Of a stretch of 64,000 nt of DNA, positions 886 to 63,703 are shown piece by piece. The stretch is from assembly GCF_016861655.1 (NCBI RefSeq), contig NZ_BOLN01000001.1:124001-188000 (forward strand), read 5' to 3'. The notes under the pieces were generated by a model. That model had not been told where the DNA came from and ran no database searches. It worked only from the letters and a program-made list of their open reading frames with translations. Each line of letters begins with the position of its first letter. Position 1 is the first letter of the stretch. Both the position numbers and the translations under genes were made by a program. The stretch comes from Levilactobacillus lanxiensis (lineage in GTDB: Bacteria; Bacillota; Bacilli; Lactobacillales; Lactobacillaceae).

Positions 886-1070
886 GTAAGCCGTGAGGGT
901 GGCGAAAATAGGCTCAGCAGTGGGAATGGACTTACCGATGATTCGTGCCGGTTAGTCCATTGGTATCTTTGAGACTCGCCTTTCGAGGCTCAAAGTAAGG
1001 CTGAAGACCGCCTTTTGGCTTCAGCCGTCCGCCCACCGCGTTCCGACCTATTTTTGCCACCCGGTAAGGC
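886..1070 (+). repeat. Dispersed multi-hairpin element, copy A (type 1 reference copy)
   Basis: Closing stem GGTGGCGAAAATAGG with CCTATTTTTGCCACC (one mismatch). It encloses three hairpins: ATGGACT..AGTCCAT, CTTTGAG..CTCAAAG (about 967-995) and GGCTGAAG..CTTCAGCC (999-1026). Related copies occur at least 14 more times in the window. It lies between a small secreted-protein gene and the response regulator gene, and holds no ORF of its own. Confidence 0.85.
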
Positions 1071-1150
1071 GCAGATAAGCACGAGCAATAAATGCGTTTA
1101 CATGCTACACTAATCGTAACTCACTGCGATAGTAAAGGAGCCCACTACAA

Positions 1151-1852
1151 ATGAAAAATACCATTCTACTCGTTGAAGACGAAGAGGGTCTGGCCAGTTA
1201 CGTGGCTAAGGAACTCACCTTTGAAGATTTTAACGTCCTGACCGCCGCCGATGGCGAAGCCGCCTGGGAGACCTACCAACAGGAAAAGGATCACTTGTTG
1301 CTGGTCCTGTTAGACTGGATGCTACCCAAGATGGACGGCATGGAAGTCCTGCGGCGAATTCGCAAGCACGATGAACTCCCCGTCATTATGATGACCGCCC
1401 GCGATTACCTGGGCGACAAGGTCACTGGCCTGGACAACGGGGCCGACGACTACATCACGAAACCCTTTGAAATTGAAGAACTCCTCGCCCGCATCCGGGT
1501 CATCCAACGCCGCACGGCCCATCAAAGTGGCCTGGATCAAACCTATACACTGGGCGACCTGACGCTGGTCACCAAGACCCGCCAAGTCGACCGGGCCGGT
1601 GAGACCATTCAGCTGACCCAACGCGAATACGATTTACTCCTCTTTCTCCTGCAACATCCCGGCCAAGTCTTCACCCGTGACGAACTGCTCGACAACGTCT
1701 GGGGCGTGGACTTTCTCGGCCAACAGAACGTGGTCGACGTGTACATCGGCTACCTTCGAAACAAAATTGACGTCGCCGGTGCCCCCCATTTGTTCCACAC
1801 GATTCGGGGCGTCGGCTACAGCTTGAAGGAAGATGACGCCGATGAGCACTAA
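1151..1852 (+). CDS. OmpR/PhoB-family response regulator
   Basis: A 233-aa response regulator. The receiver domain (about 1-115) has the acidic pair E9/D10, phospho-acceptor D55 (VLLDWMLPKMDG), a switch Thr in IMMTARD and the conserved Lys in ITKPFE. A winged-helix DNA-binding domain follows (about 130-228), with LTQREYDLLLFLL and a TIRGVGYSL end typical of OmpR/PhoB proteins. Ribosome site AAAGGAG is upstream. The gene overlaps the histidine kinase, so the two form one operon and presumably one signalling pair. It resembles ArlR-type regulators of Firmicutes, but the signal and targets cannot be read here. Confidence 0.93.
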   Translation: MKNTILLVEDEEGLASYVAKELTFEDFNVLTAADGEAAWETYQQEKDHLLLVLLDWMLPKMDGMEVLRRIRKHDELPVIMMTARDYLGDKVTGLDNGADDYITKPFEIEELLARIRVIQRRTAHQSGLDQTYTLGDLTLVTKTRQVDRAGETIQLTQREYDLLLFLLQHPGQVFTRDELLDNVWGVDFLGQQNVVDVYIGYLRNKIDVAGAPHLFHTIRGVGYSLKEDDADEH

Positions 1853-3212: not shown

Positions 3213-3264
3213 GAAATTCTCAGACAATCCTTAATCAAACTTGGTGGTTGCCGTAACCTTTGCT

Positions 3265-3273
3265 TGGTATACT
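3265..3273 (+). promoter_or_regulatory. Extended -10 promoter element
   Basis: TGGTATACT matches the extended -10 consensus TGnTATAAT, 30 bp before the start of the small gene at 3303. No good -35 was found at the right spacing. Confidence 0.5.
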
Positions 3274-3302
3274 GATTTCAACAAGTGAAAGGAAGCGTTC
3301 AT

Positions 3303-3551
3303 ATGCTGATTGATGACAACCCGCAAATTAAAACCATTACGCCCGCGCAGATTACGAAGGTGTTCTACCCATTCGTGATTGCTAAAACGGAAGCTGGAAG
3401 TTATGTCAACATTAACTTAAGCGACCAGGAGCGTCAGGACCCGCTGTTCTGGGAATCCATTACTAACATCGCCAAGGCCAAGCTTTGGGTGCCAGTTGGC
3501 GAGCGGTTCCACCAGCTGCTGTCGTACGACTGGACTTACGCCGCCGAGTAA
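3303..3551 (+). CDS. Small conserved-looking protein of unknown function
   Basis: 82 aa, soluble, no signal peptide or membrane segment. The sequence is mixed and globular in character (QITKVFYPFVIAKTEAGS, LWVPVGERFHQLLSYDW), which supports a real protein. I chose ATG at 3303 because GGAAG lies 7 nt upstream; the upstream GTG has no ribosome site. An extended -10 precedes it, so it is transcribed separately from the kinase. Repeat copy B begins two bases after the stop codon. I do not recognise the family. Confidence 0.6.
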   Translation: MLIDDNPQIKTITPAQITKVFYPFVIAKTEAGSYVNINLSDQERQDPLFWESITNIAKAKLWVPVGERFHQLLSYDWTYAAE

Positions 3552-3552
3552 A

Positions 3553-3668
3553 CAACGGTGGTTTTGCCCCGTGCCTCCAGGCTGGTGAAAATAGACCGGA
3601 ACGCGGTGGGCGGACGGCTGAGTCTATTTTCACCAACCTTGCGGCTTACACGGTGTTAACCACCGTTG
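3553..3668 (-). repeat. Dispersed multi-hairpin element, copy B (interior deleted)
   Basis: Perfect 11-bp outer arms CAACGGTGGTT and AACCACCGTTG surround the element ends. GGTGAAAATAGAC pairs with GTCTATTTTCACC. The three interior hairpins of type 1 are missing, and the GGACGG of one side joins directly to CTGAG of the other. The left arm starts two bases after the stop codon of the 3303 gene. Confidence 0.75.
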
Positions 3669-3706
3669 CCAACTCTGTGCCAGTTTAAAACTAAAATGCT
3701 AACTCA

Positions 3707-7175: not shown

Positions 7176-7430
7176 TGCGTCAACCGTAGGACTGGAGAAA
7201 ATAAACCGATTGTGTTAGTGACCAGAGGCGAGCCAAGGTGACCAGCTGTGTCGGTGGCCTTGGCTGAGGTTCTTTCTCAGCCTAGCCCACGGGGCAACCT
7301 TTGAGACCGCTCCTCAGGCTCAAAGTTGAGGTGGAAGCCCGCCCTACAGGCTGGAACCGACCCCACAGCAGGGCACCTTGAGCTCGCCGCCGGGAACGGA
7401 AGGACCGGGCACTTTTCACCAGTCCACGCA
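7176..7430 (+). repeat. Dispersed multi-hairpin element, copy C (type 2)
   Basis: Closing arms GGACTGGAGAAAA and TTTTCACCAGTCC. Inner hairpins are GCCAAGG..CCTTGGC, GGCTGAG..CTCAGCC and CTTTGAG..CTCAAAG (7299-7325, loop starting ACCGC). It contains CTGTGTCGGTGG, shared with other type 2 and 3 copies. The interior is closely similar to copy N at 63.4-63.7 kb in the opposite orientation. It ends 11 bp from the corA stop codon. Confidence 0.8.
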
Positions 7431-11011: not shown

Positions 11012-11224
11012 GGGTTGAACGAGTGTCCGGGCCTCCGGGCGGGTGAAAATGAGCCGGGTCGCTGTGGGCGAACGCCCGGAGCCAAAAAGCGGTCTCCGCG
11101 CTTACTTTGAGCCGCTAAGGTACGCGTCTCAAAGATATCAGTTCCCTAAGTGGCTTCGCCACCAAGGGAACTCCCACGGCTGAGCTCATTTTCACCCACC
11201 CTGCGGCTTACACTGGTTCAGCCC
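11012..11224 (-). repeat. Dispersed multi-hairpin element, copy D (type 1)
   Basis: Locus arms GGGTTGAAC and GTTCAGCCC lie outside the core stem GGTGAAAATGAGC with GCTCATTTTCACC. Inside are the conserved ACCGC-loop hairpin (stem CGGAG..CTCCG on the minus strand), CTTTGAG..CTCAAAG, and GTTCCCT..AGGGAAC. Confidence 0.8.
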
Positions 11225-13143: not shown

Positions 13144-13344
13144 GCGGTGCGGTACCGGAGGCGGCTAGATGGCGCAGACCTGTGTCGGTAGCGTTAGTTA
13201 GCGTTTTTTGTCGACTTACGCTACGGGTCGGTTGGAAGACGTGGCACTTTCACGGCTTTCAACCGCCTCTGAAGACCGCTTCTCAGGCTTCAGAGGTCAC
13301 CCCCACAGGCGGAGCTATCTAGACCGCCGCAGGTGCCGCACCGC
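13144..13344 (+). repeat. Dispersed multi-hairpin element, copy E (type 3)
   Basis: Nested complementary arms GCGGTGCGG with CCGCACCGC, AGAT with ATCT, and CTGTG with CCACAG. Inner hairpins are TAGCGT..ACGCTA, GGTTG..CAACC and CCTCTGAAG..CTTCAGAGG (13266-13296) with the shared ACCGC loop. It ends 12 bp from the stop codon of the ABC ATPase. Confidence 0.75.
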
Positions 13345-16904: not shown

Positions 16905-17162
16905 GGAAAGCAAAAATAATTTTCCTGAGTCCAGGCGCTTGCCGCCTCCAGTAGTCGAACGCCTAGCCTATGGGGCAACCCTCCGGAGCCAAAGGGCGGT
17001 CTCCGAAGGCGCACTGAAGCCCCGCAAAGCCCACGTGTCTTCCGCACGACCCGGGCTGTAAGGCCGCAAGTCCGGCGACCAAACAGCCCTATCACAGGCT
17101 AGGCATTCAACTACTTCCGGCTATCGCTCACGATGCAGGAAAATTATTTATCTCCGCTTTCC
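16905..17162 (-). repeat. Dispersed multi-hairpin element, copy F, with long terminal arms
   Basis: Nested arms: GGAAAGC with GCTTTCC, then a perfect 14-bp pair AAATAATTTTCCTG (16914-16927) with CAGGAAAATTATTT (17136-17149), then AGTAGT with ACTACT and GCCTAGCCT with AGGCTAGGC. The shared ACCGC-loop hairpin (stem CGGAG..CTCCG) is on the minus strand. Confidence 0.75.
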
Positions 17163-17220
17163 AAAAAAGCGCGGCTCACCAGCTTTTCTTCAGCCTATAT
17201 CCCAATGTATCCCCATATCA

Positions 17221-17262
17221 AAAGGTGTTTGTCACTAATCCATACTAGTGACAAACACCTCT
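17221..17262 (-). terminator. Terminator-like perfect hairpin
   Basis: AGGTGTTTGTCACTA pairs perfectly with TAGTGACAAACACCT, then TTTT on the minus strand. It lies between copies F and G, downstream of the lysozyme operon. Confidence 0.65.
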
Positions 17263-17357
17263 TCAGTATCATATAAACAGGGAAAACTAATTAACTATTA
17301 GTCACAGTCCAATCGCCCAACAGGCAACTCTAACTAAGTTGCTAGTTACGCCAGTAT

Positions 17358-17531
17358 CAGCTGCGAGGGCGGCGATAATGGGTTCAGCCGTGGAATTTTC
17401 TGAGGGTTCACCTCAGAAAATGGTGACTTTGAGACTCGCTCTATGAGGCTCAAAGCAAATCTGGAGACCACTCTATGGCTCCAGGCGTCCTCCCCACCGC
17501 GTTCCGGCTCATTTTCACTGCCCGGTAAGGC
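17358..17531 (+). repeat. Dispersed multi-hairpin element, copy G (type 1)
   Basis: Core runs from CAGCTGCGAGGG to CCCGGTAAGGC. Hairpins are ATTTTCTGAGG..CCTCAGAAAAT, CTTTGAG..CTCAAAG and TCTGGAG..CTCCAGG. Outer arms TAACTAAG (17331) and CTTAGTTA (17555-17562) are complementary, and the right one overlaps the stop codon of the 17556 gene. Confidence 0.8.
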
Positions 17532-35277: not shown

Positions 35278-35501
35278 GCGCATTAAACTAGTGTGAGCCG
35301 CAGGGAGAATGAAAATAGGCTCAGCCGTGGGAATTATCTTAGCGGCGGTTTTTGCTGCTTAGATAATTGCTATCTTTGAGACGCGTTCTTAGCGGCTCAA
35401 AGTAAGTCTGGAGACCGCCCTTTGGCTCCAGACGGGCGCCCACAGCGTCACGGCCTATTTTCATTCTCCCGGAGGCACTGACAACGTACCATTTAATACG
35501 C
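35278..35501 (+). repeat. Dispersed multi-hairpin element, copy K (type 1)
   Basis: Stem GAGAATGAAAATAGGC with GCCTATTTTCATTCTC. Hairpins are AATTATCT..AGATAATT, CTTTGAG..CTCAAAG and GTCTGGAG..CTCCAGAC (35406-35433). Outer arms ATTAAA and TTTAAT. It ends 27 bp before opuCA. Confidence 0.85.
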
Positions 35502-39492: not shown

Positions 39493-39745
39493 CAACCGGC
39501 AAAACCACCAACCATCCCTTGAATTTCTTTTGGGGTTGGTGCACAACTCTTAGCCGGAGTCAGCTAGGTGCGAAGTCCCGTGTCGGTGGTTGTTAGGGCG
39601 AGTGGTCTTCTCGGCCTTACAGCACGGGCTGTGGGCAAGACTTACGGGCTTGGTAAGGCTTGGCCGCAAGTCCGAAGACCGCCTTTCGGCTTCGGGCGCG
39701 CCTCATGGGACAGAGCACCTAGCTCAAGTCAAACAACCACAATCA
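39493..39745 (+). repeat. Dispersed multi-hairpin element, tandem copy M1 (type 3)
   Basis: First of two head-to-tail units with a 253-bp period. AGCTAGGTGC pairs with GCACCTAGCT, GTCCC with GGGAC, and hairpin CCGAAG..CTTCGG with the ACCGC loop at about 39672-39696. It contains CGTGTCGGTGG. Confidence 0.8.
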
Positions 39746-39998
39746 CACCCGGCCAAACCACCAATCACCCCTTGAATTTCTTTTAGGGGTGGTGCACAAC
39801 TCTTAGCCGGAGTCAGCTAGGTGCGAAGTCCCGTGTCGGTGGTTGTTAGGGCGAGTGGTCTTCTCGGCCTTACAGCACAGGCTGTGGTCGAGACTTACGG
39901 GTTTCAGTAAGGCTTGACCACAAGTCCGAAGACCGCTTCTCAGGCTTCGGGCGTGCCTCATGGGACGAGAGCACCTAGCTGACGCAGGCGGCAAAGTT
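39746..39998 (+). repeat. Dispersed multi-hairpin element, tandem copy M2 (type 3)
   Basis: Second unit, with scattered differences from M1, some compensatory: TGTGGTC..GACCACA where M1 has TGTGG..CCGCA. Conserved hairpin at about 39927-39951. It ends about 40 bp before the next gene. Confidence 0.8.
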
Positions 39999-41367: not shown

Positions 41368-41487
41368 CCAGTTGGCTGGCCCTTTTAATTTTATTCACGT
41401 CGTTAAGTAAGCAAGTTTACCTAACGATTTAGTGCAGTTAACTAGCCATCGTTTTAGCCGACAAATCCTATCCTACCAAGCTTTCAT

Positions 41488-41527
41488 TATCACCCACCGC
41501 GAGTCATTGCGATGGGTGATTTTTCAT
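41488..41527 (+). terminator. Rho-independent terminator
   Basis: ATCACCCA..CGC pairs with GCG..TGGGTGAT, then TTTTTC. A related sequence recurs at 43418, downstream of the next gene. Confidence 0.8.
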
Positions 41528-41559
41528 ACCGCCAATCGATTACTGTCCAACTAACTAGG

Positions 41560-41568
41560 TGCTATGCT
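41560..41568 (+). promoter_or_regulatory. Extended -10 element of the 41609 gene
   Basis: TGCTATGCT followed by TAGCTTGTAG; the same arrangement (TGGTATGCT plus TAGCTTGTAG) is at 43501-43509 before the paralogue. Confidence 0.45.
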
Positions 41569-41608
41569 TAGCTTGTAGATTATCGCACTTGATAAGGAGT
41601 GAACTCTG

Positions 41609-43339
41609 ATGAAAGGAAAAGTCTTTAGAACATTTTGTCTCAGTATACTTAGTTTCGTTGCCCTGCTGACTGGCCTATTACTAGTTAATGTGCGTTCTGT
41701 TCACGCGGAAACGACGCCGGTGGTGACGACTGATTTATCGAAAACAATTGATGAAACCTTTCCTGACGCCGACACAAATAGCGCTGCTGCTGTCGTCAAG
41801 GCTGCCATGCTAGACCATCAAAACTACCACACTGAGGGTTACGGCATTTCCGGCGATAGCACCCTAGCCGAGGTCCAAGCCGAGTACCCCGCCATTACAA
41901 TTGATCAGCCACTAACTAGTTATGAACCCCTCACCCGAATCACGCCCGTACTTCACGAGTTATCTCTAACCCATCAAACTAGTCAAATTGAAGCCAGTCT
42001 TCCTGCTATCATGTCTACCCTACTAGCCACTCGTCCCGACAAATATAAGAACGTGAACTCTTTAGATTTGAGCAATGATCAGTTAACAAACGCTGATCTC
42101 ACGACCTTGCTGAGCGCTGCCGAACACGTTCACTCAACCACGGTGCTTTCGAATCTCTATCTCAATCAAAATGATATTAGCGATTTTTCTCCCTGGATGG
42201 ACTACAAAAATGCGCAAGGCGCTACTAGTCCGATTGGCAACTTATATGCCCCAAGTTCAACCTCTTCGGACGCTCCCCTGCTCACAGATGTCGTGCTCAA
42301 TGGAACCACCGCGAAAATTCCTTTCACCAAATTTGATGAACTCACAACACCTTTTTCTCCAGACCTAATTGGCGACCCATTTTCACGTCAGGGCCAAATT
42401 GCCTTTAAAGTGTTTAACAGTCCCGACTTCTTTGATGATCCGACCAATTTCATCCCAAATGGTGCCCTCGGCGCTGGGAAAGTTATCCCATTAACGACGT
42501 ACCGTGATCAGTATCGCGATTTCCCCACAACGCTTGATTTCAGACAGACTGATCGGATTGATGCGCAAAGTAACACCTATTATCAGCCCCTGCCGCAGAA
42601 ACAAATAGATTCCGTTAGCGCATACTTTCCCGCCCAAACCTACACAATTCTTCCGCCAAACGACCCAGATTACCTGACCATCACCAACGTCCCAGCCCAT
42701 AGCACCGCCCTTCACCTCCGCGTCCTAGTTTGTCCATTCAAAACAGTTACCTACATTCAAAATTACACGATCAAGCTCTATCCGGCTCCGAAAACCGCTG
42801 TGCCCACCAATAATTTAGGCTCTTCGTCTAACACGTCTAGCAGCTCTAATACCGTTGTCTCACAGGCAGACAAGGCTAAACCAGAGAACAAAATCGTTTA
42901 CGCCACCAAGAAAATTGGTCTCTACAACTCCCCAACCTTTACCAATAAGGCCCGCATTCACTGGTACACCAAGGCTAAACGGACCAACCGGCCGATGTTC
43001 AAGGTCACTGGTTACGCTCGCTCCAAGAACGGCCTACTCCGCTACAAGGTCAAGGACGTGACGCCGAACGCCAAGACGAACGGTCAAACCGGCTACATCA
43101 CAGCCAAGGACAGTTTTGTCAGCCACGCCTACTACCAAACTCAGACAAAGAAGATCAAGGTTCTCCGCGGCCTCAACAGCTATAAAACCAAAGCCCTCAC
43201 CGGCAAGAAACTCCACTACCGCAAGAACCAAGTCATTCGGGTGAAGAAGCTGGTCACTCACAACCTGACCACGCGGTACCAGTTGCCCAATGACCGCTAT
43301 GTTTCAGCTAACAAGCGATTGGTCATGCAGGTTAAATAG
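41609..43339 (+). CDS. Secreted leucine-rich protein with C-terminal DUF5776 module
   Basis: 576 aa. Signal peptide about 1-33 (ends VRSVHA-E). Two or three leucine-rich turns lie near 150-200 (VNSLDLSNDQLTNADLTTLL; LSNLYLNQNDISDF), then a beta-rich middle and a Ser/Asn linker (about 405-420). The last 150 residues form a DUF5776-type module with internal repeats (KKIGLYNSPTF, RPMFKVTGYARSKNG, RYKVKDV, TGYITA, TTRYQLPNDRYVSANKRLV). No sortase signal, so wall binding is probably non-covalent through the C-terminus. Paralogue of the next gene; the shared upstream and downstream sequences indicate duplication. Confidence 0.8.
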   Translation: MKGKVFRTFCLSILSFVALLTGLLLVNVRSVHAETTPVVTTDLSKTIDETFPDADTNSAAAVVKAAMLDHQNYHTEGYGISGDSTLAEVQAEYPAITIDQPLTSYEPLTRITPVLHELSLTHQTSQIEASLPAIMSTLLATRPDKYKNVNSLDLSNDQLTNADLTTLLSAAEHVHSTTVLSNLYLNQNDISDFSPWMDYKNAQGATSPIGNLYAPSSTSSDAPLLTDVVLNGTTAKIPFTKFDELTTPFSPDLIGDPFSRQGQIAFKVFNSPDFFDDPTNFIPNGALGAGKVIPLTTYRDQYRDFPTTLDFRQTDRIDAQSNTYYQPLPQKQIDSVSAYFPAQTYTILPPNDPDYLTITNVPAHSTALHLRVLVCPFKTVTYIQNYTIKLYPAPKTAVPTNNLGSSSNTSSSSNTVVSQADKAKPENKIVYATKKIGLYNSPTFTNKARIHWYTKAKRTNRPMFKVTGYARSKNGLLRYKVKDVTPNAKTNGQTGYITAKDSFVSHAYYQTQTKKIKVLRGLNSYKTKALTGKKLHYRKNQVIRVKKLVTHNLTTRYQLPNDRYVSANKRLVMQVK

Positions 43340-43417
43340 TCATTTCACCTAACTAACCGAGTTGCCTAATTTGCTTTGTCTGAACATCAACAAGTCCTTA
43401 TGACATCAAGCTTTCAT

Positions 43418-43455
43418 AATCACTTACCACGCATCATTTTGGTGGGTGATTTTTC
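43418..43455 (+). terminator. Rho-independent terminator
   Basis: ATCAC..CCAC pairs with GGTG..GTGAT, then TTTTTC. Similar to the terminator at 41488. Confidence 0.65.
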
Positions 43456-43549
43456 ATGTCCACAATCCATTCACTAGTCTCACTATCCCTCACACTTACC
43501 TGGTATGCTTAGCTTGTAGTTAACTGCACATGATAAGGAGTGAATTCCA

Positions 43550-45286
43550 ATGAAAGGAAAACTGTTTAGAACGCTTTGCTTCAGTATACTTAGCACTATC
43601 GTCCTGTTAACCAGCCTGGTATTGGTTAGCCCTGCCTCGGCACATGCCGCCACACCCCCGACCGATGCCGCCACTAGCCTTGATTTGAACCAGACTATTG
43701 ACCAAGCCTTTCCCAACTACCTAACAGATCCAAATGAAGCTATCGTCCGAGAAGCTCTACTTAAAGCGGAATATCCGTACCCATATACGGGTCAAATCGA
43801 CAGAACCAGTACCTTGGAGGATGTACAAAAATGCGTTCCCCGTGTCATCATCACCGAACCAATGACAGACTATGCGCCCCTTATTAAAGTGGTCGGCCTT
43901 GCTCGCTCTCTGCACCTAGCCAACCAGCCACAGTTGTCAAAAAACCTCTCCTCCATCGCTCAGGCCTTCATGACTGATCGTAATCATCAAAATGGTATTG
44001 GCAACTTGGAACTTCCCAATGACGACCTAACTAGCGCGGACCTAGAGCTACTTCTAAGTCTTGCAAAGAAGCAGGCCCCCACCCAAACGAGTCATTTCAT
44101 TTTCTTGCTTGACCTAAGCCATAACAAAATTAGTAATTTTACTTCCTGGTCAGATTTCAAAAATTCAGACGCCAGTCAAGTCATCAGCGGGTTAAACGCA
44201 CCCATGCAAGATCCCGAATCCACGACTACCCTACCTGCACAGGACTTAACTGGCACCAGCATTAAGATTCCCTTCACAAATCTTCCAGAACTGACATCCA
44301 ATGATTTTTATGATAGTGCATACACTCTAGTTCGCGCATCGCTCACGTCTAATAAAGACTACTTTGATAAGACTGATAATTTTGATGATCAAGACAGACT
44401 TTCTCCTGAGTCAGTCCCCTATCTAAACGATATAAACAACCCCGCAATCAATTTTTATCTGTACCTAGATCCTCCTAAAACAGACTTTTCAGATATGTAC
44501 ACTATTGCCTTAAGTCCAGATACCTACACAGCAATGTTAAGTCAATCATCACTACAGGGCATGCTGACTGATGGCGATATACAGGAATATACTTTGCCAG
44601 CCGATACGACTCACCTCACAATCAATAATATTCCAGCAGGCAGCCGTCAACTCACCCTTAAGATTGCAAGACTTATTTCCGACTCCAACATGAAGTGGAC
44701 CACCTATGTTCAGAATTACACCATCCCGTTGAAATCACCTACGACAAGTAATACTGCCACCAGTGTCGAGTCCGACAAATCCAATGAATCTACAACAGTC
44801 GACACCCCAGCTGCCGACAAGGCCAAGCCAGAAAACAAAATCGTCTACGCCACCAAGAAAATTGGTCTCTACACCTCCCCAACCTTCACCAATAAGGCCC
44901 GCAGCCACTGGTACAACAAAGCAACTCGGACCAACCGGCCGATGTTCAAGGTCACTGGTTACGCTCGCTCCAAGAACGGTGTGCTCCGCTACAAGGTCAA
45001 GGACGTGACCCCGAACGCCAAAACACATGGTCAAACCGGCTACATCACAGCCAAGGACAGTTTTGTCAGCCACGCCTACTACCAGACAAAGGCTAAGAAG
45101 ATCAAGGTACTTCGCGGTCTCAACAGCTATAAGACTCAAGCTCTCACCGGCAAGAAAGTCCACTACCGCAAGCACCAAGTCATCCGCGTGAAAAAGCTCG
45201 TCACCCACAACCTGACTACGCGGTACCAGTTGCCCAATGGCCGGTATGTTTCGGCTAATAAGCGCCTGGTTATGCAAGTCAAATAG
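43550..45286 (+). CDS. Secreted leucine-rich protein with C-terminal DUF5776 module (paralogue)
   Basis: 578 aa. Signal peptide about 1-34 (SPASAHAA). Leucine-rich stretch near 145-195 (IGNLELPNDDLTSADLELLL; FLLDLSHNKISNF). The linker is Ser/Thr/Asp-rich, then a DUF5776-type module nearly identical to that of the previous gene (both have KPENKIVYATKKIGLY). The N-terminal 400 residues are much more diverged than the C-terminal 150. The start MKGK and ribosome site AAGGAG are shared with the paralogue. Confidence 0.8.
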   Translation: MKGKLFRTLCFSILSTIVLLTSLVLVSPASAHAATPPTDAATSLDLNQTIDQAFPNYLTDPNEAIVREALLKAEYPYPYTGQIDRTSTLEDVQKCVPRVIITEPMTDYAPLIKVVGLARSLHLANQPQLSKNLSSIAQAFMTDRNHQNGIGNLELPNDDLTSADLELLLSLAKKQAPTQTSHFIFLLDLSHNKISNFTSWSDFKNSDASQVISGLNAPMQDPESTTTLPAQDLTGTSIKIPFTNLPELTSNDFYDSAYTLVRASLTSNKDYFDKTDNFDDQDRLSPESVPYLNDINNPAINFYLYLDPPKTDFSDMYTIALSPDTYTAMLSQSSLQGMLTDGDIQEYTLPADTTHLTINNIPAGSRQLTLKIARLISDSNMKWTTYVQNYTIPLKSPTTSNTATSVESDKSNESTTVDTPAADKAKPENKIVYATKKIGLYTSPTFTNKARSHWYNKATRTNRPMFKVTGYARSKNGVLRYKVKDVTPNAKTHGQTGYITAKDSFVSHAYYQTKAKKIKVLRGLNSYKTQALTGKKVHYRKHQVIRVKKLVTHNLTTRYQLPNGRYVSANKRLVMQVK

Positions 45287-51892: not shown

Positions 51893-52330
51893 TCACTCCC
51901 TCTCCCGTAATAGGCGTGCTTGCCGATAAACTGTCACCGATAAGATCAGGACGATTAACAATAACAACCCGAAAATACTGGTTAAAAACATCCGCGATTC
52001 ACTGGTCTGTGGTAACCGGCCAGCAATCAAATCAGCTGAACCGGACTTAACCACTGTTGCCACGGCAGCGGCTGGCGATCCGTTTTTCTTATTACCATTC
52101 TGGGTACCCGCGACTTGATCACCATCAGACCCGGTTGTTGGTTTCGTCCCATTCGGAATATTGTCAACTAACGCGGCCAAACGACCTTGCTGTGGATTAC
52201 CAACAATATAGACCTTTGTCTGCGTGCTCCCACCAGTCCCAATCACTGTCTTGGCGAGCGCCGGTGTGCCAATGCCAACCCCAACGATTAACGTCAAAGT
52301 CAGAATGGCCCACATGATTAGCTTTTTCAT
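51893..52330 (-). CDS. Small sortase-anchored protein (CscD-like), cluster 1
   Basis: 145 aa. Signal peptide (MKKLIMWAILTLTL...ALA), a polar region of about 85 residues, then RLPQTSESRMF, a hydrophobic segment and a basic tail (YRQARLLRERE). LPQTSE fits the LPQTxE sortase signal reported for Lactobacillus plantarum, so it should be linked to the wall. I chose ATG at 52330 because AAGGAGGG lies upstream; the longer reading overlaps the DUF916 gene. Confidence 0.85.
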   Translation of the reverse strand: MKKLIMWAILTLTLIVGVGIGTPALAKTVIGTGGSTQTKVYIVGNPQQGRLAALVDNIPNGTKPTTGSDGDQVAGTQNGNKKNGSPAAAVATVVKSGSADLIAGRLPQTSESRMFLTSIFGLLLLIVLILSVTVYRQARLLRERE

Positions 52331-52361
52331 GACCAACGCCCTCCTTTCAGGCTGAACGGTC

Positions 52362-53420
52362 TTATTCTTCAGTGTCTTCATCATCCCGACGACGGCGACG
52401 AATCAGGTAGATAATTAGCAAGATTAGTAGAATTAAAATCAACATGGCTAAGGCACCTAGTCCAATCAACAACCAAATGTTAATGCCAGGATTATCCACG
52501 GAATCGCCATTGTACTTGCTGGCTTGAGCCTTAGTAATCGTGAAGTCCCGGTCAAACACCCAAGTCCGATTCGTGTTCTTCACAACCATATGCAGGTGAT
52601 AGCTGCCGGCTGCTAAAGGCGTCTTCCCATAAAGCATCGGATAGCTAAATCCTGAGTTGGGCGCCATTTGCACGTTTTCCTGTTTGAGATTCTTAACAAC
52701 CTTACCGCCATCACGATTGGTAATGGTCGTATTCATCTTGAGATTAGGAACCATGGTCGCCGTTGGGTTTCGCAGATTTGCGATAACGCCTCGGTGGTAG
52801 TTGCTAACACCAGCCGCCACTTTACCTAACTTCAAATCACCACTGGGGACCTTACCCATGACGTATTCCATACCAACGACATAAGAGTATTTGTTGTGAA
52901 CGTTGTTACTGCCTTTAACATTACCCGTAACCTTGGTATTTACACGTTCAAAGTACCAACCGCCCAGAATAATACCATTGAAATTAGTTTCGGGCATGTT
53001 CACTTTGGCCGAAACAGTCTTACTTCCCTTAGCAGGAATCGTGACTGTCTTTTGTCCTTGCACCTTAGTCAAATCAGCCATTTTATATTTCAGAGAAGGA
53101 TCATAATTTTTCGTAACATTCGTGTAATCAATCGCACCACCAGAATTGGTCCAAGCCGTATGAATAGCCGACTTCACCTTAATTTCTTGGTTGGTCACAT
53201 TATAAATCTTAGTCCGCAGCGTTTGTGTTTGCCCAGACTTCATTCTCAATTCAAAGAACGAATTTTGTTTATCAATCTGATTCTTCGGCAACTGGGCCGA
53301 AACACTGTAGCCAATATCATTACTGGCCGTTGCCGCATGAGCGGTAGCCGGAACGAGCCCACCAGTCACGAGGCTCAAAACTGCGAGTACCATGAGTTGA
53401 ATCTTCTTAAATTCTGACAT
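52362..53420 (-). CDS. DUF916/DUF3324 protein (CscA-like), cluster 1
   Basis: 352 aa. Signal peptide about 1-30 (VPATAHA), then DUF916 (about 35-155: GYSVSAQLPKNQIDKQNSFF, LRTKIYNVT) and DUF3324 (about 165-300), a C-terminal membrane helix (about 313-338) and a basic/acidic tail (RRRRRDDEDTEE). These domains are now described as the WxL-protein peptidoglycan-binding and host-binding domains. It is probably the membrane-anchored partner that holds the WxL proteins. Confidence 0.9.
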   Translation of the reverse strand: MSEFKKIQLMVLAVLSLVTGGLVPATAHAATASNDIGYSVSAQLPKNQIDKQNSFFELRMKSGQTQTLRTKIYNVTNQEIKVKSAIHTAWTNSGGAIDYTNVTKNYDPSLKYKMADLTKVQGQKTVTIPAKGSKTVSAKVNMPETNFNGIILGGWYFERVNTKVTGNVKGSNNVHNKYSYVVGMEYVMGKVPSGDLKLGKVAAGVSNYHRGVIANLRNPTATMVPNLKMNTTITNRDGGKVVKNLKQENVQMAPNSGFSYPMLYGKTPLAAGSYHLHMVVKNTNRTWVFDRDFTITKAQASKYNGDSVDNPGINIWLLIGLGALAMLILILLILLIIYLIRRRRRDDEDTEE

Positions 53421-53490
53421 ACTTACACCTCTGCCTTACCCTAGTTAGACACTCTTGTCATATCAATTTCATGATACTACATATGTAGGC

Positions 53491-53526
53491 GAAAAAGGTG
53501 CTCATCTTTAAACAATGGACACCTTC
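53491..53526 (-). terminator. Intra-operon terminator-like hairpin between the first and second csc genes, cluster 1
   Basis: Minus strand GGTG-CCAT..ATG-CACC then TTTTT. A counterpart with the same layout is at 60391 in cluster 2. Confidence 0.65.
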
Positions 53527-53545
53527 AATCGCAATTAGATAATTG

Positions 53546-54301
53546 TTATTCAGCTGGGATTGCTGGGGTATCACTTAAAGTCCAGTTCAAAGTCCCATTG
53601 TAGGTACCAGTCTTAGTGTTAGGACCAACGTTAGCCAACTTGATGTTTGAAGGATCCAGTTGGAAAGCAGTTTGGCCAGCACCGTTATCAGCGGAGGCTT
53701 GGTAGATAGTCTTAGCAGTAGCACTTTCAGTAGGCACACTTACTGTGTTAGCAGTGATTCCAGTCGTGCTGGCTTTGTTTGAAATTTTCGTAACATCGCC
53801 GCCACCATTAAAATCAACGGTAGCACCCTTCAAAGTATTCGTATTCGCATCTTTATCTTGTGCGTTGGTCATTGGCGTACTTGATAATGATACTGCCCAG
53901 CCAGCATTAGTCCCACGAGTATCAGAAATTTCAGTCACGAAGTTTGTGTTGGCAACTTTCGCATCCGTAAATGAACCGGTGCTCAATGAACTCAAGTCCA
54001 ATGATTGTGTGTTGTTGCTAACTGATTCGGCTGAACCGAAGTCCAGAGCGTCAGTCACATACAGGAAAGTCAAGTTTCCATCACCAGTAGTCGCACCGTT
54101 ACCACCATTATCACCAGTAGATGGTGTATCTGGATTGTCAGGATCGACTGGCGTCGTAACAGGCTTTGGTGCCGTGAATGCTGCGGTCGTCTTCGTAGTC
54201 CCAGAAGTTCCGTCAACTGTAGCCGCATTAGCAGCAACTGGCGCAACCGTCCCCAACAACAATGCACTTGCTAATACGATTGTACTTAATGTCTTCTTCA
54301 T
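53546..54301 (-). CDS. Short WxL-domain surface protein (CscB-like), cluster 1
   Basis: 251 aa. Signal peptide about 1-27 (VAANA-A), a Pro/Asp/Gly linker (TPVDPDNPDTPSTGDNGG), then a WxL domain (about 75-251) with TRGTNAGWAVSLS and terminal LNWTLSDTPAIPAE. First gene of cluster 1; it is preceded by a canonical promoter with an inverted repeat and followed by a hairpin terminator, so it is likely made in excess over the other members. Confidence 0.9.
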   Translation of the reverse strand: MKKTLSTIVLASALLLGTVAPVAANAATVDGTSGTTKTTAAFTAPKPVTTPVDPDNPDTPSTGDNGGNGATTGDGNLTFLYVTDALDFGSAESVSNNTQSLDLSSLSTGSFTDAKVANTNFVTEISDTRGTNAGWAVSLSSTPMTNAQDKDANTNTLKGATVDFNGGGDVTKISNKASTTGITANTVSVPTESATAKTIYQASADNGAGQTAFQLDPSNIKLANVGPNTKTGTYNGTLNWTLSDTPAIPAE

Positions 54302-54448
54302 AAATAAAGCACCCCTTAGATTTATCTTTTATGGATTCCCAAAACACTGTGACAGACAACACATCTTATGGGTCGTCATGATTTTGGTAACGCATGAGCA
54401 CCTCAATCATTAAGACCAGTTGTGGAAAAGTAACTCCCCCTAGAAGGA

Positions 54449-54474
54449 TGTTACGCTTCACTAACTATGTAACA
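54449..54474 (-). promoter_or_regulatory. Operator-like inverted repeat, cluster 1
   Basis: TGTTAC-N14-GTAACA just downstream of the -10. Cluster 2 has GTTAC-N14-GTAAC at the same place, with ATAGTTAGT in the centre of both. Confidence 0.6.
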
Positions 54475-54479
54475 AAGCT

Positions 54480-54508
54480 ATTATATGACCAAAAGATTGG
54501 CTTGTAAA
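54480..54508 (-). promoter_or_regulatory. Promoter of Csc cluster 1
   Basis: TTTACA, 17-bp spacer, TATAAT, giving a leader of about 170 nt. The rest of 54510-54890 is AT-rich with no gene; TGGATAACGCTTTCA at 54651-54665 is a weak (13/15) CRE match. Confidence 0.75.
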
Positions 54509-58755: not shown

Positions 58756-59214
58756 TCACTCCTTCTCCCGTAGCTGGCGTGCTTGATGGTAAATAATTGC
58801 CACTAAAATCAACACAATCAATAGTAGAATACCCACTAAATCAGCTAGTAAAGATTGGACTTCACTCGTCTGCGGCAATCGTCCAGCTAAAACATCAGCC
58901 GCTGCGGCCTTCAACGCCGTGACACCAGTCTCTTTCTTGTTGGGATTAGCATTATCAGTGGTATCACTCCCACTACCATTCCGCCGCAAGTCATGCCCAT
59001 GGGTCGCTGTGGTCGCCGCACCAGAAGTCTTCGTTGGCGTTTTGCCATTGGGAATCTTATCATCGGAAATCCGAGTTGCGGGATTGCCCGTAAAGGTAAT
59101 ACCCACCTGCGTTTCACCCCGACTAACCACGTTGTCAGCGAGCGCTGATGTCCCCATGCCTAGACCCAAGGCCAGCGTGAGCACCAACACTAGTTGCATG
59201 ATGAGTTTCTTCAT
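58756..59214 (-). CDS. Small sortase-anchored protein (CscD-like), cluster 2
   Basis: 152 aa. Signal peptide about 1-27, a polar middle (ATHGHDLRRNGSGSDTTDNA), then RLPQTSEVQSL, a hydrophobic helix and a basic tail (YHQARQLREKE). LPQTSE fits the LPQTxE sortase motif. Start at ATG 59214 with AAGGAGGG upstream, the same leader as in cluster 1. It lies 6 bp before the large WxL gene. Confidence 0.85.
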   Translation of the reverse strand: MKKLIMQLVLVLTLALGLGMGTSALADNVVSRGETQVGITFTGNPATRISDDKIPNGKTPTKTSGAATTATHGHDLRRNGSGSDTTDNANPNKKETGVTALKAAAADVLAGRLPQTSEVQSLLADLVGILLLIVLILVAIIYHQARQLREKE

Positions 59215-59244
59215 GATCAACGCCCTCCTTTCCAGGTAGACTCG

Positions 59245-60309
59245 TTAGTCTTCGGCTTGTTCTTCTTGCTTCTTCTTGTTCCGCCGAATCAGGTAAATGA
59301 TCAGTAAAATCAAGAGAATCAGAATCAGCATACCCAGAGCCCCTAAGGCCAGCACTAACCACAAACTGATGCCGGAGCTTTCAACCGATCCACGGTTAAA
59401 CTTGGCCGCTTGAGCCGCCGTAATCGTAAAGTTACGGTCAAAGACCCAGGTCCGGTCCGTGTTCTTGACGACCATGTGCAGGTGATAATGACCTGCCTTC
59501 AATTCTTCCTTCCCAAAGTACATTGGGTAACGGAAGGTCGTGTTTGGGGCCATCTGAACGTTTTTCTTAGTTGCTTGTTTGATAACTTTGCCGCCATCAC
59601 GGTCGGTAATCGTCGTCTTCATGTTTAAATTAGGAATAATCACGGCTGTTAGGTTCCGCAAGTCTGCGAACACCCCACGGTGATAGTCACCCAATCCAGC
59701 GGCGACCTTGCCCAATTTCATATCGGGATTAGGCGTCGTATTGCCCATCGTGTATTTCATCCCAACCACGTAGGAATAGCTGTTCCGCAGGTTGCTGGCA
59801 CCCTTGACGTCACCGGTGACCTTGCTGTCGACTCGTTTGAAATACCAGCCACCCAAGATAACCCCTTTGAAGGACGTCTTTGGCATCTGGACCTTCGCCG
59901 TGACAACCTTAGAGCTACCGGCCGGAATCGTCAGTGTAGACTTGCCTTGAATCTTACTGATATCACTCATCTTGTAACGCAGTGAGGGGTCAAATGAACT
60001 GGCTGGCTTCACGTATTCGATGGCACCGGCACTGCTGGTCCAGGCCGTATGAATCGCGGTCTTTACCTGAATATCTTGATTGGTTACGTTGTAGACGCGG
60101 ACCTTCAGATATTCCGTTTGGTTTGAAACCATTTTCAAATCAAAGAACGAGTTTTTCTTGTTGATCTGATTCTTGGGAATCGATGCCTTCACGCTATACC
60201 CGACTTCGTTTTCCCCAGCCGCATTGGCCACCGTTGTGAGTCCCAAGCCACCTAAAATCAAACTAAAAACTGCTAAAACGAGAAATTGAATCTTCTTAAA
60301 CTCTTGCAT
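59245..60309 (-). CDS. DUF916/DUF3324 protein (CscA-like), cluster 2
   Basis: 354 aa. Signal peptide about 1-30 (TTVANA-A), DUF916 (about 35-155, GYSVKASIPKNQINKKNSFF), DUF3324 (about 165-300), a C-terminal membrane helix (about 315-340) and a charged tail (RRNKKKQEEQAED). Clearly paralogous to the cluster 1 protein along its whole length. Expected partner and anchor of the WxL proteins of this cluster. Confidence 0.9.
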   Translation of the reverse strand: MQEFKKIQFLVLAVFSLILGGLGLTTVANAAGENEVGYSVKASIPKNQINKKNSFFDLKMVSNQTEYLKVRVYNVTNQDIQVKTAIHTAWTSSAGAIEYVKPASSFDPSLRYKMSDISKIQGKSTLTIPAGSSKVVTAKVQMPKTSFKGVILGGWYFKRVDSKVTGDVKGASNLRNSYSYVVGMKYTMGNTTPNPDMKLGKVAAGLGDYHRGVFADLRNLTAVIIPNLNMKTTITDRDGGKVIKQATKKNVQMAPNTTFRYPMYFGKEELKAGHYHLHMVVKNTDRTWVFDRNFTITAAQAAKFNRGSVESSGISLWLVLALGALGMLILILLILLIIYLIRRNKKKQEEQAED

Positions 60310-60390
60310 CTCTACACCCCTGACTACCCTAGTTAGTTTTTATCTATGATGATTATTGCTATGTGTTGGTTATAACCGTGTTATGTAAGG

Positions 60391-60426
60391 TAAAAAGGTG
60401 CTCATCCATAAACCAATGAACACCCT
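60391..60426 (-). terminator. Intra-operon terminator-like hairpin between the first and second csc genes, cluster 2
   Basis: Minus strand GGTG-CAT..ATG-CACC then TTTTT; the counterpart of 53491-53526. Confidence 0.65.
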
Positions 60427-60442
60427 CTACCATATAAGAAAC

Positions 60443-61216
60443 TTATTTAGCTGGGGTATCACTCAGCGTCCAGTTGATGTCACCAGAGTAGGTCACACCA
60501 CTCTTGGTGTTAGCTGGGATCGAAGTTAATTGGACGTCACCTGGATCCATTTGGAAGGTCGTGGTCAACATCCCACTACCCGCCTTGGCGCCGTAAATAG
60601 GTTGTGTCGAGGTCCCATCAGTGGTCATGCCACTAACAGCACTTTGGGTAATTCCGCTTTCAGTATCGGAAGAGCTCTTAACAGTGGCAGCAGTCTTGCT
60701 GTTCAAATTAAGTAAGGCACCGGTCAACGTGTTGGACTTGTCAGTAGTGGCATCAGCCTTGCCGCCAACCGTCATTGGGTCAGCACTCAAGCTGATTGAC
60801 CAACCGGCGTTTGTCCCACGAGTATCCGTAACTTCAGTCAACAGGTTGGTGTTGTCTGCAATAGCAGTCCCAGTCCCAGAGGTCCGGCTATTATCAACCT
60901 TTTCAGCAGTGGCATCTTGGGTATTCGTTGAAACATCATGTGATCCGAAGTCAATGCCCTTAGAAACGTAGAGCAAAGCCAAGTCACCGGCAGGATTAGT
61001 GGTGTCAACCCCACCCTTGTCACCTGGATCTGGCTTGGTTGGGTCAGTTGGGTCAACTGGGTCGGTCGTGGCTTTTGGCTTGTTAAATGAAATTGAACCT
61101 ACCGTCTTACCAGTCATCTGACCAGTGTCCCCGGTAGCCGCATTGGCCGTAATTGGTGCCACGGCACCTAACAACAAAGCGCTGGCTAATAAAATACTAC
61201 TAATTGATTTCTTCAT
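60443..61216 (-). CDS. Short WxL-domain surface protein (CscB-like), cluster 2
   Basis: 257 aa. Signal peptide about 1-27 (ITANA-A), a Pro/Asp linker (TTDPVDPTDPTKPDPGDKGG) and a WxL domain with TRGTNAGWSISLS and terminal INWTLSDTPAK. First gene of cluster 2. Its promoter, leader inverted repeat and downstream hairpin match those of cluster 1. Confidence 0.9.
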   Translation of the reverse strand: MKKSISSILLASALLLGAVAPITANAATGDTGQMTGKTVGSISFNKPKATTDPVDPTDPTKPDPGDKGGVDTTNPAGDLALLYVSKGIDFGSHDVSTNTQDATAEKVDNSRTSGTGTAIADNTNLLTEVTDTRGTNAGWSISLSADPMTVGGKADATTDKSNTLTGALLNLNSKTAATVKSSSDTESGITQSAVSGMTTDGTSTQPIYGAKAGSGMLTTTFQMDPGDVQLTSIPANTKSGVTYSGDINWTLSDTPAK

Positions 61217-61374
61217 GAAGAATACACCCCTCTTGTATTTGTTATCTGCATGGTTCCCACATAATTAAGCACCATATGCTAGTTGTTGCATTAATCCTTA
61301 ATGGGCTTACGTTCCCAAGTAACGGATACACCCACGATGACTAACAATTTGAGACAAAAATCGTTTCAAATCGC

Positions 61375-61398
61375 GTTACAATCAACTAACTATGTAAC
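61375..61398 (-). promoter_or_regulatory. Operator-like inverted repeat, cluster 2
   Basis: GTTAC-N14-GTAAC immediately downstream of the -10, matching cluster 1. Confidence 0.6.
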
Positions 61399-61404
61399 AA
61401 CGTC

Positions 61405-61433
61405 AGTATATGTCAAAACAGCGTGTGTGTAAA
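61405..61433 (-). promoter_or_regulatory. Promoter of Csc cluster 2
   Basis: TTTACA, 17-bp spacer, TATACT, with a leader of about 185 nt. The stretch 61440-61760 upstream is AT-rich; only a small ACCCTA..TAGGGT hairpin near 61684 was noticed. Confidence 0.72.
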
Positions 61434-61762
61434 CCTTTTCTGTTAAAATATATTCAACTTTTTTAAAGTTAACTTAAAAACGTTGAAACGCCGGCAGTTC
61501 GGCTGTTGTAGCCATTCTAAATGTTTCATATAATGTCTAATAAGCACTTTACTAGACAACAAAGTCCCACAATTATCCAATCAACGAGACTATTCGTTAT
61601 AATCACGATAAGCGCCGGTATGCCGTGAATAGTGTGCCAATCAATGGCGAACAATCATTCATACTATATTCCCATAGAAAGAACCCTATAAACTATCATT
61701 AGGGTGGTTACAGTCAAAAAATCTTTATTTTCCGCATTTTTCACAAACATTTACGGGTAAAC

Positions 61763-61804
61763 AAAAAAGCCAGCTCAACGGCATCTCCCGTCAGCACTGG
61801 CTTT
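61763..61804 (-). terminator. Rho-independent terminator
   Basis: Minus strand AAAGCCAG..CTGGCTTTTTTG, after the 61809 gene. Confidence 0.75.
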
Positions 61805-61808
61805 CAAG

Positions 61809-63338
61809 CTAGTCCTCTAGTAATTTCCGGACCAACGATTGTGTAACACTTTCGCGTTTTTCGCGCTCATCAGCCCGCCGCAGGGCAACCTGCTGGAGCG
61901 CCGACAACGTGGCCGCTTCAGCCTCGGCTGGCAAGGCATACAGGCGATGATAAGCCTGTTTGATCTGAGCAAATTCAGTATTCTCGCGAACCAGCCCCCG
62001 TAGTTGGGTGGTCGTCACGTGATTTTTCTTGGCTGGCACCCAGTCATTTGCCGGTTGAACCGCCATCCGCTGCGTGAAGGCCTGCCGCAATTCCGCCGGC
62101 CAAGTGGCTGGCAACGCATCCCCCGCCGTTAACCGGGCCCGCAAGCTTTCACAGTCTCGGTAAACACTCACTGGCACCTGTTGACCCTCCCAGGATTGTT
62201 GGAGCTTGACCAAGCTAGCCGTCCGTTCCGTTGGCGTCAGGTCAAAGCCAATCGCCGCGTTAAACAAGTCATCCCACCAATCACGTTGGCGCTGGTGGGC
62301 ACGCTGGCGACTGGCCCGGTTCAAATCCGCCACCAGGTACCGTGGCACGATTTGGAGCCGCGCCGCCTGAATCTGGCCGGTCCTGGCAAATTCCGTGGCC
62401 ATCACCCCTAGTTGATAGGAGTTGACTAGCTTCTTCAGGCTAGCCGGCATGGTAAGGGCCGCGAGGTTTTCCTTAAACGCAGCCAACGGTAAGTGCTGGG
62501 TAATCAGATTGGCCACCCGCTGTAAGTAGCTCCGATACGGTGCCGACGCCCGCAACTCCTGAACCGCCGTACTTTCTTGGTTCTCGGCGTGTTGCCAGGC
62601 CGCCTGCGCCTCTTCCTCGGCCAACTGTTTCTCCCGTTCAGCCCGACGCTGGGCCGCCTGTTGCGCAGCCGTAGCCGCTTCCTGGTCAATCCCCGTCAGG
62701 ACGTCATACTCCGTCAGGTATGGTTTTAACTGGGTTTCCGGCAAGGTCGTTTGGGGGCGTTTCAAATACCCCGTCACCGTATCCTTGGTCCCATGCCGGA
62801 CCCAGTGCTGGCGCCGTTGGTGGGTTTGAGGCAAGTTAGGCAAGGCTTCAGGGTCCCACAAAATTTCTGGCACCTGGGGGTAGTGGGCGGTCAAATCGTC
62901 GTATTGGGCGACCGCATGGATGTTATCCTCGGTGGTGATGGTCATCAGGTACTGCATTTCATCACTCATGAACTTCTTCACGCACTCGGAGCCAACAATG
63001 ATCTTATGGCCGTCCTTGCGCAACACCACGTGGTATTCGTAGCGCACCGGCTTGTGACAGAGCGCACAATGCCGCCAATCCAGCCGGTTATTGCTGGGAT
63101 TGATCACGTACGGCGAGTCCGCCAATAATTTCCACGCCTCGCTGCTCTGAACTAACCAGTCGACTCGCTGCTCCAACAAGGCTTCTCGCGCCGAGCGGGG
63201 GAGAAAATCACTGCTGTCCTTAATCGTGGGGTGGTCGCGCAGCAGTGGCATTAGTCGGGTCAATCCCGGCAACGCCAGTGCACGCTGACTCAGTTGTAGG
63301 AACCGGTTCTCGGCCGGCGTCAAAATGGTGGTTGCCAT
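61809..63338 (-). CDS. Large protein with a Cys-rich treble-clef-like motif, unknown function
   Basis: 509 aa, no signal or membrane segment. Near residues 90-125 it carries CALCHKPVRYEYHVV and GSECVKKF, a C-x2-C plus distal Cys pattern like a small zinc-ribbon. The middle (about 215-260) is a charged Glu/Ala/Gln coiled coil (AAQQAAQRRAEREKQLAEEE). The rest is helical and rich in Arg and Gln. Preceded by AAAGGAC at good spacing. Monocistronic with its own terminator. A nucleic-acid-related role is possible but is only inference. Confidence 0.65.
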   Translation of the reverse strand: MATTILTPAENRFLQLSQRALALPGLTRLMPLLRDHPTIKDSSDFLPRSAREALLEQRVDWLVQSSEAWKLLADSPYVINPSNNRLDWRHCALCHKPVRYEYHVVLRKDGHKIIVGSECVKKFMSDEMQYLMTITTEDNIHAVAQYDDLTAHYPQVPEILWDPEALPNLPQTHQRRQHWVRHGTKDTVTGYLKRPQTTLPETQLKPYLTEYDVLTGIDQEAATAAQQAAQRRAEREKQLAEEEAQAAWQHAENQESTAVQELRASAPYRSYLQRVANLITQHLPLAAFKENLAALTMPASLKKLVNSYQLGVMATEFARTGQIQAARLQIVPRYLVADLNRASRQRAHQRQRDWWDDLFNAAIGFDLTPTERTASLVKLQQSWEGQQVPVSVYRDCESLRARLTAGDALPATWPAELRQAFTQRMAVQPANDWVPAKKNHVTTTQLRGLVRENTEFAQIKQAYHRLYALPAEAEAATLSALQQVALRRADEREKRESVTQSLVRKLLED

Positions 63339-63427
63339 GCGTAACGTCCTTTCGTCTCAAATTCGCGTTCTTTTAGTCTACCATAACTCGCCGCAAAATA
63401 GGGAACATATGTTTATTTTTTCTTTTC

Positions 63428-63703
63428 GCCTCCGGGATGGTAAAAACTGAGCCGAAACGCAGTGGTGCTGGCCGTTCCCGCCGGCGGGCTCAAAGCGCCC
63501 TGCTGTGGGGTCGGTTCCAGCCTGAGAAACAGGCTTCCACCTCAACTTTGTGCCTGAAAGGCGGTCACAAAGGTTGTCCCATGGGCTAAGCTGAGAAAAT
63601 CACTCAGCTAAGGCCATCGACACAGCTGGTCACTTTGGCCCGCCTCTGGTCACTCACATCGACCCGGTCAGCTCATTTTCACCAGCCCTGCAGCTGACAC
63701 GGG
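63428..63703 (-). repeat. Dispersed multi-hairpin element, copy N (type 2)
   Basis: Ends GCCTCCGGG and CCCTGCAGCTGACAC as in type 1, but the interior matches copy C (7.2-7.4 kb) in inverse orientation: GGTGGAAGCC, CTTTGTG..CACAAAG with the ACCGC loop, GCTGAG..CTCAGC, and CTGTGTCGATGG. Confidence 0.8.

Follow-up and report, generated by a model that had tools for sequence, protein, structure and literature searches.

What are the highly structured, non-coding segments that lie scattered between the genes of a 64,000-nucleotide stretch of Levilactobacillus lanxiensis DNA (contig NZ_BOLN01000001.1, positions 124,001 to 188,000; hereafter the window), and does the host make use of them? A sequence-only reading had described about 15 such segments as one dispersed family, each with a long closing stem around about three hairpins, and had left open whether they are a non-autonomous mobile element, a structured RNA, or both. 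Here we report the fold, the copy number, the polarity towards genes, the exchange of interiors and the slow evolution of resident copies of this family; the polarity, the exchange and the in-place conservation go beyond the earlier description. We consider it likely that the family is a non-autonomous repeat recognised through its fold. The fuller reading that we prefer, in which an old chromosomal family of this kind has been kept as transcription-boundary elements, has in our judgement somewhat less than an even chance of being correct.

Copy number, fold and covariation

A covariance model, R1, was built from 28 aligned copies (alignment A1), comprising 25 of 30 loci found by BLAST in the same genome and three window copies; five loci were left out because their ends were missed by the search patterns or only one end was found. 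With filters off, R1 recovers 15 of the 15 listed window copies at E<1e-3, the weakest (39001) at E 0.00088, although four of them match by construction, three as part of the build and a fourth (11031) through its coverage by stretch L001. Eight lie on the plus and seven on the minus strand, so that both orientations are represented as described. The family also extends well beyond the window: BLAST with one window copy gave at least 44 matches in the genome (40 of 209 candidates were scored), and all 150 scored candidates, of 1670 first-look candidates, were confirmed by R1. In a sample of 464 kb that includes the window, 131 R1 hits reduced to 102 places once 28 lower-scoring duplicates on the opposite strand had been removed, together with the second half of one copy split over two stretches. 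These 102 copies occupy 4.1% of the sequence by model length, or about one per 4.5 kb, which extrapolates to about 660 copies per genome; the coverage of about 5% first given for the window is near, if not equal to, this value. None of the 102 overlaps a predicted open reading frame (ORF) of at least 700 nt (greedy calling gave 418 ORFs, and 19 smaller ones that overlapped copies were discarded to leave 399), which agrees with their description as intergenic and non-coding. No Rfam family reached its gathering score in the window, and at relaxed thresholds all matches on stretches L001, L004, L029 and L179-L182 stayed below that score.

The multi-branch layout had been read correctly, with a closing stem, an inner stem and three hairpins. 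The earlier description needs correcting in that at least three interior types occur. In type I (40 of the 102 sampled copies, R1 score >90 bits) a locus-specific closing stem is followed by a small internal loop, a near-invariant GAAAAT/ATTTTC, the inner stem and the three hairpins. The interior of type II, GTGACCAGAGG...CCGGGAACG, is longer and is found alone or within a type I frame, and type III has an outer stem of its own. The elements are short, have no ORF and end in inverted repeats, GGGTTAAAC/GTTTAACCC, as do miniature inverted-repeat transposable elements (MITEs); these arms vary by locus and track their own partner, the outer arms of type I fitting it better than the partners of other copies (p 5e-8). 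Flank complementarity outside the arms is not significant in type I (p 0.11); it is significant in the other copies, where the model hit often stops within the frame. In the 17 copies whose arms were recognised, an inverted match of 4 bases runs on beyond the arms in 6, against 1.9 in shuffled sequence. Close to the ends, the flanks are only weakly enriched in A+C on the strand of the element.

Covariation supports the fold. No structure model was used in aligning A1, for which RNAalifold predicts 59 pairs; compensatory double changes occur at 24 of them. A larger type I alignment (103 copies from 66 loci, E<=1e-20), fitted to R1 and hence biased towards its structure, has 97.0% of cells paired and double changes at 47 of 59 pairs, with 801 double-change cells against 177 in shuffled alignments and a covariation score of 0.396 against 0.134. 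None of 500 shuffles matched any of five measures, and slid controls were far lower, so the statement that pairing is kept while the sequence varies holds for type I. For type II, double changes are seen at 25 of 59 predicted pairs in alignment A5, whose 36 rows had their ends set by hand and include a misplaced one, L034:15051. The internal loop of type I occurs in two forms that co-vary across its sides, GCA with GGAGG in 48 and GNGA with GGTAAGG in 33 of 103 copies, one copy being discordant and 21 unclassified. Part of this concordance could stem from the common descent of two subfamilies; the GTGA/GGTAA form, however, also encloses a type II interior (C1 358143-358405). A TTTT lies beside the inner stem in 28 of the 28 type I copies in A1, and because GAAAAT/ATTTTC is near-invariant there, a U4 tract would follow the stem on either strand. 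Interiors of types II and III by themselves lack the tract, as do several other-genus copies.

Variation among copies prefers one strand. In alignment A3, with the two pairs commonest as G-U set aside, G-U occupies 126 cells and A-C 65; as many as 30 of these 65 fall at one poorly aligned outer pair, and removal of that pair and one more leaves 121 against 35. Split by placement, the G-U:A-C counts are 18:10 in 18 stop-facing and 30:8 in 22 start-facing copies, and they are 33:14 in A1 (whose rows were mostly chosen by BLAST) and 58:9 in A5. All of these are counts of copies rather than of independent events, and when positions are counted instead, the two differ little (14 vs 10 and 13 vs 9).

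Polarity at gene boundaries and change between species

The copies are oriented with respect to genes. In 51 of 57 single copies the 3' end of the model is nearer to a gene than the 5' end. Outermost copies with the 3' end outward lie a median of 20 bp from the gene when they face a stop codon (35 of 48 within 30 bp) and 80.5 bp when they face a start codon (4 of 48 within 30 bp); 50 of the 102 copies are stop-facing and 52 start-facing. Regions with several copies in the L. lanxiensis sample have the strand order -+ in 15 cases, ++ in three, -++ in two and --+ in one, and never +-, while opposite-strand neighbours are head-to-head 18 times and tail-to-tail never. The same order prevails at Levilactobacillus-like loci of relatives (22 -+, two -- and no +- among 81 copies, L070 having been removed as a near-duplicate of L069) and in other genera (nine -+ and no +- among 32 copies). 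Of the 102 copies, 53 have a terminator-like hairpin with a T-run on their 5' side, at broadly spread distances, 10 have one on the 3' side and 41 have neither.

Other Lactobacillaceae, in which further copies were to be sought, do carry them: R1 has matches in 75 of 301 family genomes, spread over 11 of 40 genera, a lower bound because the filters were strict. The order-wide search gave matches in 25 of 395 genomes, including weak ones in three genomes that do not belong to the family. Beyond the Lactobacillaceae, look-alikes exist in two families of the order; four stretches from three such genomes all fold to the same layout, and a 176-base query from one of these genomes gave 29 and 38 matches (partials included) in two genomes, both from one of these families, and none in the third. 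By blastn no copy was found in 72,556 plasmid records or in 50,697 phage records, the extra-family query having been run on the plasmids only.

The closest relatives in the collection searched are Levilactobacillus mulengensis and Levilactobacillus wangkuiensis, and one contig of the latter is collinear with the L. lanxiensis genome at about 92% identity. Of 63 L. lanxiensis copies in the collinear range 62 could be measured: in 33 the lengths agree to within 25 bp, in 13 the difference is 60-130 bp, more than 140 bp is missing at 10, and six differ in other ways. Seven of those 10 keep element ends or parts in L. wangkuiensis, two belong to a tandem duplication in L. lanxiensis (one being misanchored) and one is ambiguous. 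In the reverse comparison 34 of 59 L. wangkuiensis copies agree within 25 bp, with four more unanchored. At five of the 13 size-changed loci a type I and a type II interior have been exchanged within a similar outer stem; interior deletions and end differences are among the changes at the remainder. In a comparison of 26 Levilactobacillus-like loci, intergenic regions that hold a copy in some species were empty, and often short, in others, so that gains or losses occur on longer scales.

Where copies stay in place, they change slowly. In 32 orthologous copies (one of 33 was removed for identity <80%), substitutions amount to 5.2% at paired positions, 9.9% at unpaired positions and 16.2% in the outer-arm zone, while the 5' intergenic flank stands at 19.3% and the coding flank at 5.4%. 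The choice of length-conserved copies biases these figures towards conservation, and divergence may be overstated by the alignments of the flanks. Double changes at paired positions number 57, against about 13 of any kind expected by our estimate from the single-site rate, and 44 of the 57 end as Watson-Crick pairs; single changes converted 70 Watson-Crick pairs to G-U and 128 to no pair.

The suggestion of mobility found no support for the present day, as no clean empty type I site was found in the comparison with L. wangkuiensis and one solo type II locus is ambiguous. A target duplication of 4 bases flanks one of 17 copies, against 0.77 in shuffled sequence, and none has 5 or more; both arms were recognised in only 17 of 101 copies. 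In line with the earlier description, no transposase was found among 40 window proteins scanned with Pfam, a set short of some small ORFs. Matches to the Y1 transposase family PF01797 number two in L. lanxiensis, five in L. mulengensis and none in L. wangkuiensis, which bears elements all the same, and the reverse transcriptase RVT_1 was not found in L. mulengensis, all in draft genomes. An IS200/Y1 enzyme and a reverse transcriptase were both rejected as the mover because neither was found in all three element-bearing genomes tested. Integron attC-like sites were rejected as well, their arm order being opposite.

Copies in the window

The window copies and one candidate terminator are listed below.

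Table 1. Copies of the repeat family and a candidate terminator in the window (R1 scores in bits)
Position	Strand	Assignment	Evidence and setting
888..1069	+	Type I, GTGA/GGTAA internal-loop variant	R1 163.4; 81 bp upstream of response-regulator start
3573..3647	-	Interior-deleted type I	R1 65.8; 21 bp after stop codon
7219..7394	+	Type II interior, decayed frame	R1 36.1; row of A5; stem arms 7186-7207, 7413-7429
11031..11209	-	Type I	R1 200.1
13152..13334	+	Type III	R1 40.5; 21 bp from stop codon of ABC-transporter gene (Pfam)
16944..17123	-	Type III-like, left member of head-to-head pair	R1 53.5
17219..17266	-	Candidate intrinsic terminator, hairpin and T-run between pair members	Sequence and fold; weak R1 hit, E 0.75
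17358..17530	+	Type I, right member of pair with 16944	R1 138.7; 25 bp from stop codon
21791..21987	+	Type I between convergent genes	R1 113.7; 19 bp from stop codon
29329..29501	-	Type I	R1 135.2; 16 bp after stop codon
34984..35161	-	Type I, left member of head-to-head pair	R1 167.3
35295..35476	+	Type I, right member of pair with 34984	R1 189.2; 51 bp upstream of start codon
39001..39186	-	Type III	R1 22.1, E 0.00088; 34 bp after stop codon
39557..39730	+	Type III-like, tandem duplicate	R1 29.1
39804..39989	+	Type III-like, tandem duplicate	R1 39.7
63477..63652	-	Type II interior in type I frame	R1 34.1; frame 63428-63696; row of A5

Several of these copies differ in the relatives. The interior of the first copy is deleted in its L. 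wangkuiensis counterpart; conversely, the copy at 3573, which is followed by a terminator-like hairpin with a T-run, is classed as interior-deleted because L. wangkuiensis and L. mulengensis both carry a full copy at the same place. The copy at 11031 has a type II interior in L. mulengensis within the same outer ends. Those at 17358 and 21791 are each reduced in L. wangkuiensis (G301:C3:45557 and 49823) to an identical junction of GTGTCAGCC and GGTAAGGC, which could reflect precise excision rather than chance slippage. The copies at 39557 and 39804 form a tandem duplication (a 169-nt repeat, 92% identical, 253 bp apart) that is a single copy in L. wangkuiensis.

About 23 kb of the window (40000-63400) contain no copy at E<1e-3. 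This part carries genes for surface proteins (DUF5776 proteins, and clusters of WxL and WxL-interacting proteins) and has a partly lower G+C content (0.457-0.514 in 8-kb windows), as expected if it were recently gained DNA that has yet to acquire elements. Within it, two WxL-type gene regions (52300-54500 and 59200-61400, about 6.9 kb apart) have many short repeats in common, which suggests an old cluster duplication, and the neighbouring DUF5776 genes at 41477-45112, with common upstream repeats and a 300-nt segment that is 90% identical, may have arisen by tandem duplication.

Origin and possible function

In the reading that we prefer, an outer frame with its locus-specific closing stem would hold one of several exchangeable branched interiors, and insertion would occur at gene boundaries with a preferred polarity, the 5' end turned to the terminator side and the 3' end to the nearest gene, whose stop codon would lie about 20 bp away or whose start would lie downstream. 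Resident copies would be retained by selection for their action at transcription boundaries, where a transcript heading from the spacer into a gene, by read-through or as antisense, would meet the fold and be terminated or degraded. We favour such a function because the copies sit at the entry points for read-through or antisense transcripts, because their paired positions change as slowly as the adjoining coding DNA, and because type I combines an A-tract, a stable stem and a U-tract that can be read both ways. We put it forward tentatively, clearly below even odds, because recent changes are symmetric, the 3' flank is slow and Rho shows no association with the element.

Several observations weigh against this reading. 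Single changes between orthologs, each locus being counted from both sides, gave G-U 85 and A-C 71 times (p 0.30). This lack of strand preference is at odds with selection acting in place on a single RNA strand; a preference is seen in the older variation and not in recent change. Pair-breaking single changes, 128 of them from Watson-Crick pairs, exceed the compensated ones. The 3' intergenic flank is slower still than the copies, at 3.9% (1011 positions, close to genes), so not every flank evolves faster than they do. The excess of terminator-like hairpins on the 5' side is partly geometric, because the 3' gap is usually too narrow to accommodate one, and a promoter scan of the 5' flanks was too lax to discriminate, 62% of shuffled flanks being scored. 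Copies that follow a stop codon would be transcribed antisense by their own gene, and the UUUU tract is short and missing in several folded other-genus copies. A role as a substitute for Rho was rejected: 63 of the 301 family genomes, none of them Levilactobacillus, pass the TIGR00767 cut-off for Rho, which is present in 17 of 75 element-bearing and 46 of 226 other genomes.

The high copy number and the set of interior types would also suit a purely selfish element, REPIN-like or MITE-like and without a host role, whose one-strand fold would serve only copying by a transposase in trans and whose resident copies would be relics. Such an element would also accord with the varying occupancy of the 26 loci and with an older variation that is G-U-biased on one strand (A3, A1, A5) while recent in-place changes are not. 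We nonetheless regard it as unlikely, given that residents evolve more slowly than their 5' flanks, that no clean empty type I site was seen against L. wangkuiensis and no duplication at the 17 testable copies, that Y1 was not found in the draft genome of L. wangkuiensis nor RVT_1 in that of L. mulengensis, and that plasmids and phages yielded no copies. The strand symmetry of recent changes would fit a DNA-level palindrome, a cruciform or hairpin bound by a chromosome-organising protein. Selection for the DNA fold would maintain it, or else template-switching in the hairpin, by which changes in one arm are copied into the other. Double changes that retain pairing, interior deletions and type I outer arms that match their own partner best (p 5e-8) are all consistent with this; the strand-polar older variation and the concerted change of the internal-loop forms are not, and a purely mutational process should not slow the stems relative to the 5' flank. 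We regard a palindrome of this kind as distinctly unlikely.

Strand-polar older variation and the outward orientation of the pairs would also be found if transcription started in the spacer of head-to-head pairs and the copies were cis-regulatory leaders, or small RNAs in their own right. About half of the copies, however, would then run antisense into the 3' end of a gene, and a sigma-70-like promoter seen by eye between copy and gene at C1 14762 and 437961 places these two outside such a leader, so that we give this explanation very little credence. Our preferred reading of boundary elements could be widened to a one-way genomic fence, in which folded elements in several families of the order would mark intergenic edges, let a gene's own transcript leave and stop invaders, with interiors spreading by fold-guided exchange; this extension is speculative and quite unlikely to hold in full.

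The EFAR repeats of Enterococcus are reportedly about 170 bp long, modular, located near stop codons and active as bidirectional terminators. They are probably the nearest published kind, by description rather than by sequence, and for this reason we do not call the Levilactobacillus family a new class. It differs from them in a far higher estimated copy number and in having a frame with an exchangeable interior and a polarity rule that is not known to be stated for EFAR. EFAR repeats are placed among MITEs in a paper (PMC3733652) that cites De Gregorio et al. 2009 (PubMed 19222577) for them. Efa-1 of E. faecalis (Cozzuto et al. 2008, PMC2267715), with 163 bp and 65 copies (18 full length), is similar by description in that the table of its source assigns it to a type I, which we read as intergenic; the only Lactobacillus family in the account consulted is Lac-1 of Lactobacillus johnsonii, placed in coding sequence. 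REPINs and RAYT, in the account of PMC3116915, share dispersed extragenic hairpin units, compensatory changes and some tandem clusters with the present family, which differs in its three-hairpin interior and in that no Y1 transposase was found in L. wangkuiensis. In Bacillus cereus, bcr1 and further MITE-like repeats, compared by description, are likewise short, intergenic and structured, and about half of such repeats were found in transcripts, whereas the account consulted states no polarity rule (PMC3446304). Among the titles and abstract openings listed by our searches of open-licence papers, none describes the family in lactobacilli.

If our preferred reading is true, hundreds of intergenic regions in food lactobacilli would bear a non-coding element that has no Rfam family, and many genes in these genomes would be bounded by it. 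The rules of polarity and exchange would lead to direct predictions on termination and antisense control, as well as on how structure-recognised repeats may spread without an obvious transposase.

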